Shown here piece after piece: positions 1-8,753 of a stretch of 64,000 bases of DNA. Under the pieces are notes generated by a model. That model worked only from the letters and a program-made list of their open reading frames with translations, ran no database searches and was not told the DNA's origin. Both the position numbers and the translations under genes were made by a program. The stretch's first letter is position 1. The number at the start of each line of letters is the position of its first letter. The stretch comes from Oribacterium sp. P6A1 (GTDB lineage: Bacteria > Bacillota > Clostridia > Lachnospirales > Lachnospiraceae), in NCBI RefSeq assembly GCF_000702885.1, contig NZ_JNKO01000001.1:1-64000 (forward strand), read 5' to 3'.

Positions 1-306
1 TTTATGTTTAGACCAGTCTTTAATAGCCGTAAAGAATGACTTCCAGTCCTTTTCCAATAAACGAAGGATTTGTTGAGCCGACTGAGCGGTAGGCATCTGT
101 TTGTAATCATCAAATTCAAGATCTGCTTTTAACAGCTTATCCATATCTCCGTACCGAAGCCATTTATCATTTTTGACAAATTCGCTACGGACTAGATAGT
201 TTGCATGATTATAGAGATTCTTTGATTTATGGGTAAAGTCACAGAACATTGAGTAGAACGGACTATTATGTTTTATCAGATGTTTCTCTACTCTCTGAGC
301 TATCAT
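1..306 (-). CDS. tnpB: TnpB-type (IS605 OrfB family) RNA-guided endonuclease, N-terminal part only
   Basis: The reading frame is open from an ATG at 304-306 to the left edge, giving 102 residues; the C-terminal nuclease part lies outside the window. The N-terminus has the look of the IS200/IS605 and IS1341 TnpB family: a helix-turn-helix-like start with KSKNLYNHANYLVR, then WLRYGDMDKLLK, then QSAQQILRLLEKDWKSFF, all typical of its first 100 residues. In this family the protein is a transposon-encoded nuclease guided by an RNA from the element's end. A GGGGGG stretch seven bases upstream of the ATG serves as ribosome binding site. The element's boundary on this side must fall between this start and the peptide gene at 384-536. 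No tnpA is visible. Whether the full gene is intact cannot be judged. Confidence 0.82.
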   Translation of the reverse strand, partial: MIAQRVEKHLIKHNSPFYSMFCDFTHKSKNLYNHANYLVRSEFVKNDKWLRYGDMDKLLKADLEFDDYKQMPTAQSAQQILRLLEKDWKSFFTAIKDWSKHK

Positions 307-383
307 CTTCTTCTACCCCCCAAAAATAGCCACAACATTGAATATAAAAAATCTTATATATTTATAATCATTCTTTATTGTAA

Positions 384-536
384 TTAGTGACTATACGCAC
401 CAAACTGTGGATATTCTGCTAAAAGAACTTGATCACCAACTTTGTATTTTGGAGTTGGTGCATTCGCCTCGCTGACACCGCCAGATACCTTAGCCATCAT
501 ATCATCATTAAGTTCTATGTTCTTATTCTCTGACAT
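384..536 (-). CDS. Short double-glycine leader peptide (50 aa), possibly truncated
   Basis: Fifty codons starting at ATG 534-536, with a strong GGAGG site nine bases upstream. Residues 1-20 form a bacteriocin-type leader ending in VSGG. Fifteen of these 20 positions are identical to the leader of the neighbour at 570-836. Leaders of this kind are known to be cut after GG by C39-peptidase ABC exporters. The 30-residue remainder has no cysteine, so thioether-type modification is unlikely. It contains YKVGDQVLLAEYPQFG, which resembles the first strand of a small SH3-like barrel and then stops abruptly. The tnpB element starts about 80 bases downstream, so the gene may have lost its 3' end to that insertion; this is inference. 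No exporter or immunity gene is visible in the window. Confidence 0.72.
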   Translation of the reverse strand: MSENKNIELNDDMMAKVSGGVSEANAPTPKYKVGDQVLLAEYPQFGAYSH

Positions 537-569
537 ATCTGTTTCCTCCTTGTTGTGTTGTTCTTCTCA

Positions 570-836
570 TCAAAGGAATTGAATAATCTCCCATTTGGCT
601 TGTCCTATTAGTTCAACTTTCACCCTTGTACCCGGCTCCAGCAGCTTTCCGATTGCCCAATAGTGAGCGCTTATATCTCGCCCGTCATCCGCATGTACCT
701 TGTAAATCGTCGGATCTCCTGAAACACCAGGGCCAACTACTGTTCCTATTGCAGTACGTCCTCTTTCTTCAGCATTACCACCCGTAGCATTCGCCATCAT
801 CTTATCATTAAGTTCCATGTTCTTATTCTCTGACAT
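570..836 (-). CDS. Double-glycine leader peptide/protein (88 aa)
   Basis: Eighty-eight codons with a GGAGG site nine bases upstream of the ATG. Residues 1-20 are a leader ending in ATGG that matches the leader of the gene 33 bases downstream at 15 of 20 positions, while the rest of the two proteins is unrelated. This is the usual pattern in families of peptides sharing one exporter/protease. The presumed mature part (68 residues) starts with a polar NAEERGR stretch. It then has a beta-rich, glycine-containing sequence (GTVVGPGVSG, RVKVELIG, WEIIQFL) that suggests a small folded barrel rather than an unstructured bacteriocin. It has no cysteine. Family and function are not recognised; secretion is inferred from the leader alone. 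Confidence 0.75.
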   Translation of the reverse strand: MSENKNMELNDKMMANATGGNAEERGRTAIGTVVGPGVSGDPTIYKVHADDGRDISAHYWAIGKLLEPGTRVKVELIGQAKWEIIQFL

Positions 837-914
837 TTTCTTATCCTCCTGTCTTAGTCGAAATTTTTTAGGAATCTTTCTAATTCCTTTTGTTCACGTT
901 TTTTTGATAGATAA

Positions 915-943
915 ACTGTACCATTAATGCATTATTGGCACAA
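915..943 (-). promoter_or_regulatory. Candidate promoter of the double-glycine peptide genes
   Basis: On the minus strand, TTGTGC and TACAGT lie 17 bp apart, about 80 bases upstream of the 88-aa gene. The match to consensus is weak, as is common at promoters needing an activator. The direct repeats at 952-986 lie just upstream of the -35 box. Confidence 0.4.
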
Positions 944-951
944 TGATTCGC

Positions 952-986
952 GTCTATTCGGTAAATTTTAATGTCTATTTGGCAAA
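952..986 (-). promoter_or_regulatory. Pair of 14-bp direct repeats, 21 bp start to start (candidate activator site)
   Basis: On the plus strand the sequence GTCTATTYGGYAAA occurs at 952-965 and again at 973-986. The copies match at 12 of 14 positions and are spaced by exactly 21 bp, about two helical turns. The nearer copy ends eight bases before the candidate -35 box. Direct repeats with this spacing, next to the -35, are the known layout of LytTR response-regulator sites (AgrA, ComE, PlnC type) at bacteriocin promoters. The regulator itself is not in the window, so the assignment is inference. Confidence 0.45.
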
Positions 987-1017
987 AAACTCTGATTTTT
1001 GTGTTTTTTGTACATCA

Positions 1018-1060
1018 AAAAGAGGATGTGGAAATGATCTTTCATTTTCACATCCTCTTT
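1018..1060 (-). terminator. Intrinsic terminator upstream of the peptide unit
   Basis: A near-perfect 19-bp stem (AAAGAGGATGTG and its complement) with a short loop, followed by a T-run on the minus strand. No gene ends just upstream of it; it would insulate the peptide promoter from minus-strand readthrough. Confidence 0.7.
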
Positions 1061-1566
1061 AACTTAATAACTTAGTGACAGATACTTTTGACATTCATAT
1101 CAATTCATGAATCTAACTGCTTATAGAGACCGATTCACTGTTGAATACCATTAAGATAGTTCTGCATTGTTTGAATTTTCTTCTCATATCAATAATCCCT
1201 TCCAAATAACATATTGCACAGAAATGTGTGTTGCATATTATCCCAATAACTTATTTCGACAGGGATTACTAAAAAATATTCTATAATTTTAAGTATTAAA
1301 TATGAGGTAATTAATATTGTTGATACATAAAATTATTAAGTACGGAGAATAAGTTAGGATTTAAATAGTTTACATACAAAAAAACAGCGGCTCCCGAAGG
1401 AACCACTGTTCTGATGTAAAGATAAAGTCTTTGACATTACCTTTCATCCGCATCAGGCTGTTTTTTATATATCCTGAGTTTTACTATTCTATACCCTCTG
1501 CTTTAGCTGCGATTCCATATATTTCGTTTCATACTCAATCCCCTCAAATTGAAATAGAACAATATA
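1061..1566. other. Geneless AT-rich stretch
   Basis: No protein gene is supported. It holds the hairpin at 1383-1410. A nine-codon minus-strand ORF starts near 1513 behind GAGGGG; it may be translated but is too short to judge. Confidence 0.5.
1383..1410 (-). terminator. Intrinsic terminator, orphan
   Basis: A 12-bp stem with G-U pairs and a CGAA-type tetraloop, followed on the minus strand by seven T. Only a very short possible ORF lies upstream of it, so it appears to end a transcript starting near the palindrome at 1567-1580. Confidence 0.75.
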
Positions 1567-1720: not shown

Positions 1721-1736
1721 CTCAAAATCTTAGGAT

Positions 1737-2080
1737 CGAGTATCGTAATAAGCCGGGTTATGTATCAAGTGGTCATCTATCTAGGGCGTATGTTGCCATA
1801 CGTCTCAATCAACCTACCCGGAAACTGACGAGCAGCCATATGTTTCCTATTTGGTCTTTCTTCGAATGGGGTTTATAATGCCGCTCCTGTCACCAGTCGC
1901 GCGGTAGTCTCTTACACTGCCGTTTCACCCTTACCGGCAAAAGCCGGCGGTCTGTTCTCTGTTACACTTTCCTGTGCGTCACCGCAACCTGCCGTTAGCA
2001 GGCATCCTGCTCTGTGAAGCCCGGACTTTCCTCTCCCAGCCGGTTTCCCTTATACTGGCAGCGACCACATCCGATACTCG
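1737..2080 (-). ncRNA. rnpB: RNase P RNA
   Basis: Catalytic RNA of RNase P, which trims tRNA 5' leaders. Read on the minus strand, the conserved GGAAAGTCCGGGC block is at 2019-2031. It is followed by the GGTAAGGGTGAAAC region, AGAGACTACCGC, and near the 3' end AACCCGGCTTATTACG. The ends were set by the P1 helix: CGAGTATCG at 2072-2080 pairs with CGATACTCG at 1737-1745. The resulting length of about 344 nt is within the bacterial range. It has its own promoter (2088-2116) and terminator (1685-1720). The type A/B class was not decided. Confidence 0.93.
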
Positions 2081-7564: not shown

Positions 7565-8623
7565 TCAGTATTTCTGCCATCCGATGGGAACAAAATACTC
7601 TTTGAATTTATATATACAGTAGTCATCTGTCATGCCGGCGATGTAATCACACACGCTTCTTTCATGGGCCAGCAGGATCTTCTTTTCCTTCATGGGATCA
7701 TCTGATCTGATTGCCGAAAGCATATTTTCAAGCATGGTGGTATACTCAGAGGTCATGGATTCAGGATGCTCCATGTAGTAGTTGAAAAGAAGGCGGATCA
7801 TCCGGTTTACCTTCACCTCTTCAGCCTTTGCGGCACCGCCGATGTAAATGTGGTCGAACATCCATTGTCTCAGAATCTGCATGGCTGTCTCTACCTCACG
7901 GGACATACGAAGCTCTTTCTGATCCTGAGAATTGTAAATCACATCATGTATCAGGGTGTTGAGACGTTCTTTTACAGAATGACCCAGCACATCGGTTATT
8001 TCTTTCGGGATGTCACTTTCTTTAATAAGTCCTGCGCGGATGGAATCGTCTGTGTCATGATTTATATAGGCGATCTTGTCTGCAAAACGTACTGCCTGGC
8101 CCTCCAGTGTGTGAGGGTGTCCCGAGGTACGGTGGTTGAGAATTCCGTCACGTACTTCCTTTGTAAGGTTAAGTCCCCTTCCGCCTTTTTCCAGAACCTC
8201 AACGACTCTGACGCTCTGTTCGACATGAGAGAATTTTTCGTGGCAAAGATCATCCAGAACTCTTTCTCCGCTGTGTCCGAAGGGGGTATGTCCCAGGTCA
8301 TGTCCTAGGGCAATGGCTTCTATCAGGTCTTCATTGAGACGAAGGGCTTTTCCGAAGGTACGGGCGATCTGACTTACCTCCAGAGTGTGTGTGAGTCTGG
8401 TACGGTAGTGATCACCTTCAGGCGCTATAAAGACCTGTGTCTTATGCTTCAGTCTTCTGAATGCCTTACAGTGGATGATGCGGTCTCGATCTCTCTCATA
8501 GCATGGTCTGATATCATCCGGCTCTTCAAATCGGTCACGTCCTTCCGAGTTTTTGGATAATGCTGCATAAGGAGATAATGTTTTCTCTTCCAGCTCTTCA
8601 AGTTGTTCACGAATACAGCTCAT
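7565..8623 (-). CDS. dgt: dGTP triphosphohydrolase (HD domain)
   Basis: A protein of 352 residues in the dGTPase/deoxynucleotide triphosphohydrolase family, which cleaves dNTPs to nucleoside and triphosphate. The HD motif is clear: RLTHTLEVSQIAR followed by ALGHDLGHTPFGHSGE (His79 and His108-Asp109 by this start). The start at ATG 8621-8623 was chosen because GGGAGG lies six bases upstream; an upstream GTG two codons earlier overlaps that site. It precedes dnaG by 127 bases and is probably co-transcribed with it. Confidence 0.9.
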   Translation of the reverse strand: MSCIREQLEELEEKTLSPYAALSKNSEGRDRFEEPDDIRPCYERDRDRIIHCKAFRRLKHKTQVFIAPEGDHYRTRLTHTLEVSQIARTFGKALRLNEDLIEAIALGHDLGHTPFGHSGERVLDDLCHEKFSHVEQSVRVVEVLEKGGRGLNLTKEVRDGILNHRTSGHPHTLEGQAVRFADKIAYINHDTDDSIRAGLIKESDIPKEITDVLGHSVKERLNTLIHDVIYNSQDQKELRMSREVETAMQILRQWMFDHIYIGGAAKAEEVKVNRMIRLLFNYYMEHPESMTSEYTTMLENMLSAIRSDDPMKEKKILLAHERSVCDYIAGMTDDYCIYKFKEYFVPIGWQKY

Positions 8624-8753
8624 ACACACCTCCCGATATCAAATAATACGTAAAGCATAGCATTTTGAGCCCATCTCCGCAATAATTTGCGAACGTTTGT
8701 ACATAAAATAGATGGGGTGCAAAGTCGGAAGCCTTCCGGTATCAAATATAAAA

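Follow-up and report, generated by a model that had tools for sequence, protein, structure and literature searches.

A partly truncated double-glycine peptide pair in Oribacterium is likely the decayed head of a LytTR/DUF3021-linked export island with exchangeable cargo

Introduction

Several described systems share features with the locus analyzed here, as far as the accessible parts of the respective reports describe them. In the LytTR Regulatory Systems, a membrane protein inhibits the LytTR regulator with which it is paired; the repeats measure 9 bp, are separated by 11-13 bp and mostly by 12 bp, and tend to lie 10 bp before the -35 element; two of these systems, HdrRM and BrsRM of Streptococcus mutans, control bacteriocin genes (PMC6193735). 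PCAT1 of Clostridium thermocellum is an ABC exporter with a C39 domain, and its substrate CtA is a protein of 90 residues made up of a 24-residue Gly-Gly (GG) leader and a 66-residue cargo (PMC6959990). The precursors of NHLP/Nif11 export are scattered in the genome and join a constant leader to a variable core (PMC2887384). In the same family as Oribacterium, the LahA1-9 precursors of Lachnospiraceae bacterium C6A11 have conserved GG leaders and diverse cores, but their leaders are of the Nif11 type and they belong to a lanthipeptide cluster (PMC6363468). The EbfG proteins of Synechococcus elongatus are likewise small, secreted and marked by a GG motif, and serve a role other than a shown antibiotic action; they come from another lineage and differ in role, and the likeness is one of description (PMC4997328). 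Among the literature matches listed, as judged by titles and the starts of abstracts, none joined LytTR Regulatory Systems, NHLM exporters and folded cargo.

We analyzed a stretch of 64,000 nucleotides, hereafter the window, at the start of contig C1 of Oribacterium sp. P6A1 (genome G000). The initial annotation had read two small genes near its left end as a quorum-sensing-like unit. Our analysis suggests that they are likely the decayed head of a LytTR/DUF3021-linked export island with exchangeable cargo instead of a working quorum-sensing unit.

Results

Layout of the locus and its promoter

The features of the locus are listed in Table 1. The two direct repeats are identical at 12 of 14 positions and lie 21 bp apart from start to start, with eight bases between repeat 2 and the weak -35 element TTGTGC. 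This layout had been described in the initial annotation and was borne out by our re-reading, as was the absence of cysteine from both cargoes. Both genes carry the 20-residue GG leader that had been called near-identical, a generous wording for leaders that agree at 15 of 20 residues.

Table 1 Features of the peptide locus and of related cassettes. Positions are those of the window unless a locus handle is given.
Feature	Position	Strand	Evidence
IS200/605-like element, left part; tnpB N-terminus at 1-306	1..391	-	TnpB model and second copy
pepA ORF, 50 aa	384-536	-	ORF translation
Truncated pepA cargo; homology to intact 85-aa gene stops near 392	384..476	-	Homologue comparison
pepA Gly-Gly leader, 20 residues (MSENKNIELNDDMMAKVSGG)	477..536	-	ORF and leader alignment
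pepB ORF, 88 aa	570-836	-	ORF translation
pepB cargo, 68 residues and stop, predicted five-stranded barrel, OB-like	570..776	-	ORF and predicted structure
pepB Gly-Gly leader, 20 residues (MSENKNMELNDKMMANATGG)	777..836	-	ORF, leader alignment and leader profile
Promoter-like: -35 TTGTGC 938-943, 17-bp spacer, -10 TACAGT 915-920	915..943	-	By eye
Direct repeat 2 (TTTACCGAATAGAC), LytTR-type half site, 21 bp from repeat 1	952..965	-	Aligned sites and held-out matrix
Direct repeat 1 (TTTGCCAAATAGAC), LytTR-type half site	973..986	-	Aligned sites and held-out matrix
RNase P RNA (RF00010), anchor of synteny with G012 exporter locus	1733..2080	-	Rfam model and blastn
Cassette-flanking repeats	L006 7513-7585, 8622-8689, 8771-8838; L025 8442-8504, 9399-9466; L029 8719-8791

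Taken by itself, the window sequence makes the repeats no more than mildly unusual, of marginal significance: a pair of this quality arose at a frequency of 0.079 for any spacing of 15-40 (1000 shuffles) and of 0.003 at a spacing of 21-22 (2000 shuffles). With relatives included, they are far beyond chance. Nine promoter sites align gap-free over 76 columns with a mean column identity of 80%, and in all nine the ACCGAATAG-type repeats are separated by a 12-bp gap and stand 10 bp before the -35 element as we place it; the alignment also has the 17-bp spacing to the -10 element. A held-out matrix, built without the window site and without its closest sibling, gave its top score, 47.9 bits, to the window site, against 0.1 for the runner-up position in the window and a best of 1.5 bits over 20 shuffles. 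It is conceivable that chance repeats and a chance GG leader adorn ordinary cytoplasmic proteins, as the marginal statistics of the repeats and the weak results with the leader model TIGR01847 (15.2 bits for pepA against a cutoff of 15.7, no match for pepB) could suggest. However, the held-out matrix and the synteny described below contradict this, and promoter and leader recur before different cargo and before an exporter; we regard a chance origin as hardly credible.

The repeats as a strict pattern recovered the window site alone, and a loose pattern with three mismatches was swamped in the own genome, with 66 matches against 36 in a reversed control. A profile promoter model, R1, was therefore run on 17 genomes of the genus. 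It gave 12 matches at E<=0.01 in five of them, 11 of which are strong (E<=4e-17) and fall in four genomes: G000 (3), G006, which is Oribacterium sp. C9 (1), G012 (6) and G013 (1). The weak match (E 0.0076) is in G010, apparently the Oribacterium MAG RUI013, with no GG ORF flagged nearby. Nine of the 12 matches are training sites; those outside the training set are G000 contig C7, G013 and the weak G010 match, so that the independent strong matches are C7, whose promoter is near-identical to the C9 training site, and G013. Downstream of the 12 matches stand eight intact GG-leader genes and two leader remnants (before the G012 exporter and in G013), while one strong match precedes a 182-aa gene that lacks a GG leader and appears membrane-like by eye.

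Leaders and their relatives in other genera

In a sample of 250 Lachnospiraceae genomes, five, including the own genome, had a leader-profile match at E<=0.01. The matches in G074 and G205 were confined to leader positions 8-20 and were discounted. Leader-cargo proteins of the pepA/pepB kind are encoded at two loci in G095 and at one in G057, and upstream of each of the three lies an ACCG-type pair with 21-bp spacing. For two of these none of 2000 shuffles was as good, and the value for the third was 0.0065. The repeats are thus conserved before related leader genes, including those of two other genera, where two sites are clear and one is weak. No ACCG pair was found beside the short LytTR genes of G095 and G057, which sit away from the cassettes.

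Leucine occupies position -12 in 12 of 13 leaders, and position -7 is methionine in 11 and leucine in two; these are the leader residues gripped by C39 domains (PMC6959990). With TIGR01847, three of ten relatives scored 14.0-14.5 bits and seven gave no match, all under the cutoff. No relative in IMG/VR viral contigs or plasmids was confirmed. In G074, an exporter-like operon of the same gene order (L127 4321-9865, -) lies near a small protein with a longer leader that looks Nif11-like by eye.

A LytTR/DUF3021 pair is linked to the repeats

On contig C8 of the own genome and contig C57 of G012, a gene for a LytTR protein (PF04397) adjoins one for DUF3021 (PF11457); Pfam detected no receiver model, and the motif-linked LytTR proteins have 156 and 163 aa. 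The regulator gene run behind the repeats in G012 consists of pep1, pep2, a membrane protein, LytTR and DUF3021, unlike the arrangement on C8, where the LytTR gene is upstream of the repeats. DUF3021 occurs in six of the 17 genus genomes and stands beside cassettes in two of them (G000 and G012), the other four (G001, G002, G003 and G016) having no promoter match. Conversely, G006, G010 (77% complete) and G013 contain cassettes or remnants with no DUF3021 match; G006 carries intact peptides and promoter, with C39 genes elsewhere.

Several features are shared with the LytTR Regulatory Systems (PMC6193735). A LytTR gene adjoins a membrane-protein gene (here DUF3021), the 9-bp repeats leave a gap of 12 bp and stand about 10 bp upstream of a weak -35 element, and the motif precedes GG peptides and, in G012, the gene run of the regulator itself. 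The repeats are ACCxxTTAT-like in the systems of that report (PMC6193735) and ACCGAATAG here, and the Oribacterium motif precedes an NHLM-type exporter and OB-like cargo; the sites here are putative and the likeness is one of layout. The layout fits these published systems rather than kinase-based quorum sensing. LytTR-type control, as the initial annotation had proposed, is supported by this layout, and the G012 repeats precede both the C39 exporter operon and the LytTR gene run.

The quorum-sensing label itself did not hold, as the linked regulator is a LytTR/DUF3021 pair without an adjoining histidine kinase, and no sensed peptide was identified. In a classical peptide quorum-sensing circuit, a histidine kinase and a LytTR response regulator of the Agr/Blp type would sense a peptide and activate the repeats. 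The repeat spacing is compatible with either regulator type, and the own genome does have two LytTR regulator genes with kinase-like neighbours (by eye) on contig C17 and one more on C5. However, a repeat scan found no repeat pair beside the C17 and C5 genes and no GG peptide was flagged there, whereas the motif-linked LytTR proteins lack a receiver domain and adjoin DUF3021. In addition, 60-70 residues is large for a peptide pheromone. We thus consider such a circuit improbable.

Synteny with an exporter island

On G012 contig C57, counterparts of window positions 797-1064 and of the RNase P RNA lie in synteny, at 94-99% identity (blastn). C57 has the same promoter and first leader codons, fused by an internal deletion to the pepA tail. 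Following this remnant are, in order, a HlyD-like gene, ABC1 with a C39 domain, and ABC2. ABC1 is assigned to TIGR03796 (896 bits; NCBIfam cutoff 853), ABC2 scored 703 bits with TIGR03797, 6 below the cutoff of 709, and the HlyD-like protein is short with a weak TIGR03794 match (24.8 bits; cutoff 156). Beyond the exporter, a second repeat promoter stands ahead of genes for two GG peptides, a small membrane-like protein, LytTR and DUF3021. Since this synteny places the promoter before the exporter operon, the window pair most likely once stood at the head of an export island.

A complete exporter together with LytTR/DUF3021 and peptides was found in one of the 17 genus genomes (G012). A C39 domain matched at E<=0.001 in nine of the 17, eight of them over the cutoff. 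A HlyD/C39-ABC/ABC-like operon with the same neighbour genes was noted in G012, G004, G013, G010 and G007 (L086, L087, L088, L089 and L093), and the ORF filter flagged no GG ORF beside it in those five genomes.

The G012 gene order of HlyD-like, C39-containing ABC1 and ABC2 is also that of NHLP/Nif11 export (TIGR03794/03796/03797; PMC2887384). The Oribacterium proteins differ from those precursors in their short leader (20 residues), the cargo that is predicted to fold, and the lack of any noticed modification enzyme (PMC2887384). The combination of a C39 ABC exporter and a GG-leader substrate is shared with PCAT1 and CtA, but the exporter here is of the two-ABC NHLM type, and the available part of the PCAT1 report describes one substrate and neither LytTR control nor cargo swapping (PMC6959990). 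Because PCAT1 carries a 90-residue substrate, cargo size would be no obstacle to export (PMC6959990).

The exporter type raises the question of whether the peptides could be RiPP precursors, of the NHLP, Nif11 or another kind, that leave the cell through an NHLM exporter, as this type has been described with NHLP/Nif11 precursors (PMC2887384), and a cyclophane RiPP model picked up one G012 peptide weakly (13.8 bits; cutoff 36; E 0.048). However, the 20-residue leaders compare with averages of 83 and 70 (PMC2887384), no NHLP/Nif11 model matched the window peptides or ten relatives at E<=1, and among the ORFs at the G012 and C8 loci, inspected by eye and in part searched, we noticed none for a modification enzyme. 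A RiPP precursor therefore appears very unlikely.

A transposon interrupts pepA

The second GG gene, which the initial annotation had treated as intact, is truncated. The homologue in Oribacterium sp. C9 is intact with 85 aa, and the window pepA tracks it to residue 48 (tblastn match 1-49) before departing at TATA. An IS200/605-like element starts at this break point. The element lies 3' of the TATA at 392-395 inside pepA, contig C1 starts within the element, and the last pepA codons and the stop are supplied by transposon sequence. We read the element as an IS200/605-like insertion 3' of TATA. The TnpB model scored 31.4 bits on a 102-residue fragment, under the cutoff of 100, and the sequence at hand covers the left part of the element. 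Contig C18 opens with another copy (13-406, locus L071), 99% identical and with the same end and the same TATA flank. Two contigs of G000 are thus terminated by near-identical IS200/605-like copies, and the cut peptide gene runs off its contig. The 3' half of pepA had no match in the own genome at E<=1 and is either lost or unassembled. Because the insertion cut pepA, its 50-residue product is not a natural cargo.

The system in the window's genome

No C39 domain was matched in G000, which is 97.6% complete, and no complete exporter of the NHLM type was found there. Contig C8 retains ABC2 (TIGR03797, 715 bits; cutoff 709), while its ABC1 is a 103-aa stump (positions 611-710 of 710) with a piece of a PD-(D/E)XK gene (PF08011) upstream. 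C8 also encodes STAS, HATPase, LytTR and DUF3021 proteins, followed by a repeat promoter ahead of two GG-leader genes, one for a peptide and one for a zinc-ribbon-like protein. LytTR genes are present in the genome, but of the C39 exporter that the annotation had expected there is a remnant only. The unit in G000 is probably not working: a transposon has interrupted pepA, and the search brought up no exporter together with its protease.

Contig C7 has a third promoter and two GG peptides. In the G000 stretches that we read, which do not amount to a full census, six GG-leader genes lie in three places; two have longer leaders and one (pepA) is broken. The leader profile also gave a fifth match in the own genome, a partial one on C5 (positions 5-14 in a 30-aa frame). 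The STAS protein and anti-sigma-like HATPase between ABC2 and LytTR (L024 10211-11086, -) may provide an additional switch; we did not notice them at the G012 locus. GG-leader proteins of 111 aa with zinc-ribbon-like cargo (weak Pfam matches) occur at L024 8391-8726 (-) and L027 12978-13313 (+), and the zinc-ribbon-like GG protein of G012 stands behind its own repeat promoter.

Cargo is exchanged behind a near-constant promoter and leader

We compared 14 chosen cassette pairs for DNA identity over the upstream 150, the leader 60 and the cargo. Three of the 14 show a swap: pepB of C9 against the own C7 peptide (99/92/60% for upstream, leader and cargo), pepA of C9 against an RUI013 peptide (99/97/60%, the upstream DNA there being the end of pepB) and G012 C67 against C81 (90/95/59%). 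Shuffled cargo gave a mean identity of 58% and a maximum of 64% in 200 trials. The window pepA and the same RUI013 peptide are at 99/100 upstream and in the leader, the window cargo being truncated; the two are identical through the leader up to the Gly-Gly codons and divergent after them, and their blastn match (99.6%) stops at leader base 61. Several other pairs have diverged both upstream and in the cargo, such as the own C8 against G012 C57 (60/68/60). The reverse case is seen for the window and C9 pepB, which share cargo at 99% with just 71% identity in the upstream DNA. In G012 (before the exporter) and G013, the cargo was lost while the promoter and part of the leader were kept. Near-constant promoter or leader DNA thus carries unrelated cargo, and the clearest pair switches at the Gly-Gly codons. 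This modularity of promoter and leader versus cargo is the strongest new point of our analysis.

Short repeats of 60-75 bp occur in the intergenic DNA on either side of cassettes from different genomes, lying at times upstream in one and downstream in another. When compared as a possible mechanism of movement, they showed some similarity and no clear recombination site. A membrane-like protein of 64-65 aa, its copies similar as judged by eye, recurs near cassettes (L024 6899-7093, -; L027 9475-9672, +; L083 about 8530-8680, +).

Predicted fold of the cargo

The pepB model, built from three aligned sequences, has five strands, with a cargo pLDDT of 74-94, mostly about 90. Its Foldseek neighbours include RsgA/YjeQ, small-ribosomal-subunit chains and proteasome-ATPase N-domains in the PDB and IF-1/S1-like proteins in a viral set, none matching at E below 0.001; we take these neighbours to be OB-folds. 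The complete peptide, PepB, is thus predicted to be a small barrel, OB-like. The annotation's suggestion of small folded barrels is in keeping with the prediction for this 68-residue product, whereas the model for the pepA class (AlphaFold, pLDDT 60) is too poor to tell.

In hhalign, cargo from G095 could be aligned to the pepB class (E 1e-5, probability 83%, 38 columns). The second cargo class, that of pepA, showed no relation to pepB (probability 0.6%) and drew weak SH3/Tudor-like names (DUF3553, 17.3 bits with a cutoff of 20.3; PDB E 0.098 and above); because the matches are weak and the model is poor, no fold is claimed for it. The cargo had nothing over cutoff against Pfam, NCBIfam, PHROGs or PDB sequences; one relative matched PF10439 weakly (12 bits; cutoff 27.1).

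Discussion

We propose that the window pair is likely the decayed head of an export island whose intact relatives would work as follows. A short LytTR regulator would be held, and thereby inhibited, by its DUF3021 membrane partner as in a LytTR Regulatory System. As the layout suggests, LytTR would bind the two ACCGAATAG-type sites 21 bp apart and turn the weak promoter on. In G012, the motif stands before the GG-leader small proteins, the NHLM-type HlyD/C39-ABC1/ABC2 genes and the regulator gene run. The C39 domain would cut after Gly-Gly and the exporter would release a cargo of about 60-70 residues. Cargo exchange probably proceeds by recombination through the conserved leader DNA.

As to the cargo, our tentative guess, with a likelihood somewhat short of even, is that its members are secreted and act as antagonists in the manner of bacteriocins; the small membrane protein that accompanies some cassettes would then be a candidate for immunity. 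Alternatively, the cargo could be secreted proteins without antagonistic function, such as matrix or biofilm proteins or adhesins, comparable to the cyanobacterial EbfG proteins with their GG secretion motif. Small GG-motif biofilm proteins are on record (PMC4997328), and no toxin-like match was found for the cargo. However, cargo exchange behind a constant leader and two cargo losses look more like diversifying antagonism, and we consider the non-antagonistic alternative rather unlikely, though a good deal less so than quorum sensing or a RiPP precursor.

Returning to the export island with exchangeable cargo, it may, with a likelihood just below an even chance, represent a wider Lachnospiraceae family of LytTR/DUF3021-controlled, NHLM-exported small folded proteins, neither RiPP nor standard bacteriocin, in which a constant cassette receives swapped cargo. 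Its cargo classes would include an OB-like, a second beta-rich and a zinc-ribbon-like one, recombined at the Gly-Gly codons. If so, LytTR Regulatory Systems, NHLM exporters and folded cargo would be joined in one system, and target genes would be predicted for the unstudied LytTR/DUF3021 pair. The locus would provide a naturally occurring cassette of promoter and leader into which various small proteins can be fitted, with cargo exchange and loss displayed among close relatives, and these bacteria would possess a modular arsenal of secreted proteins.
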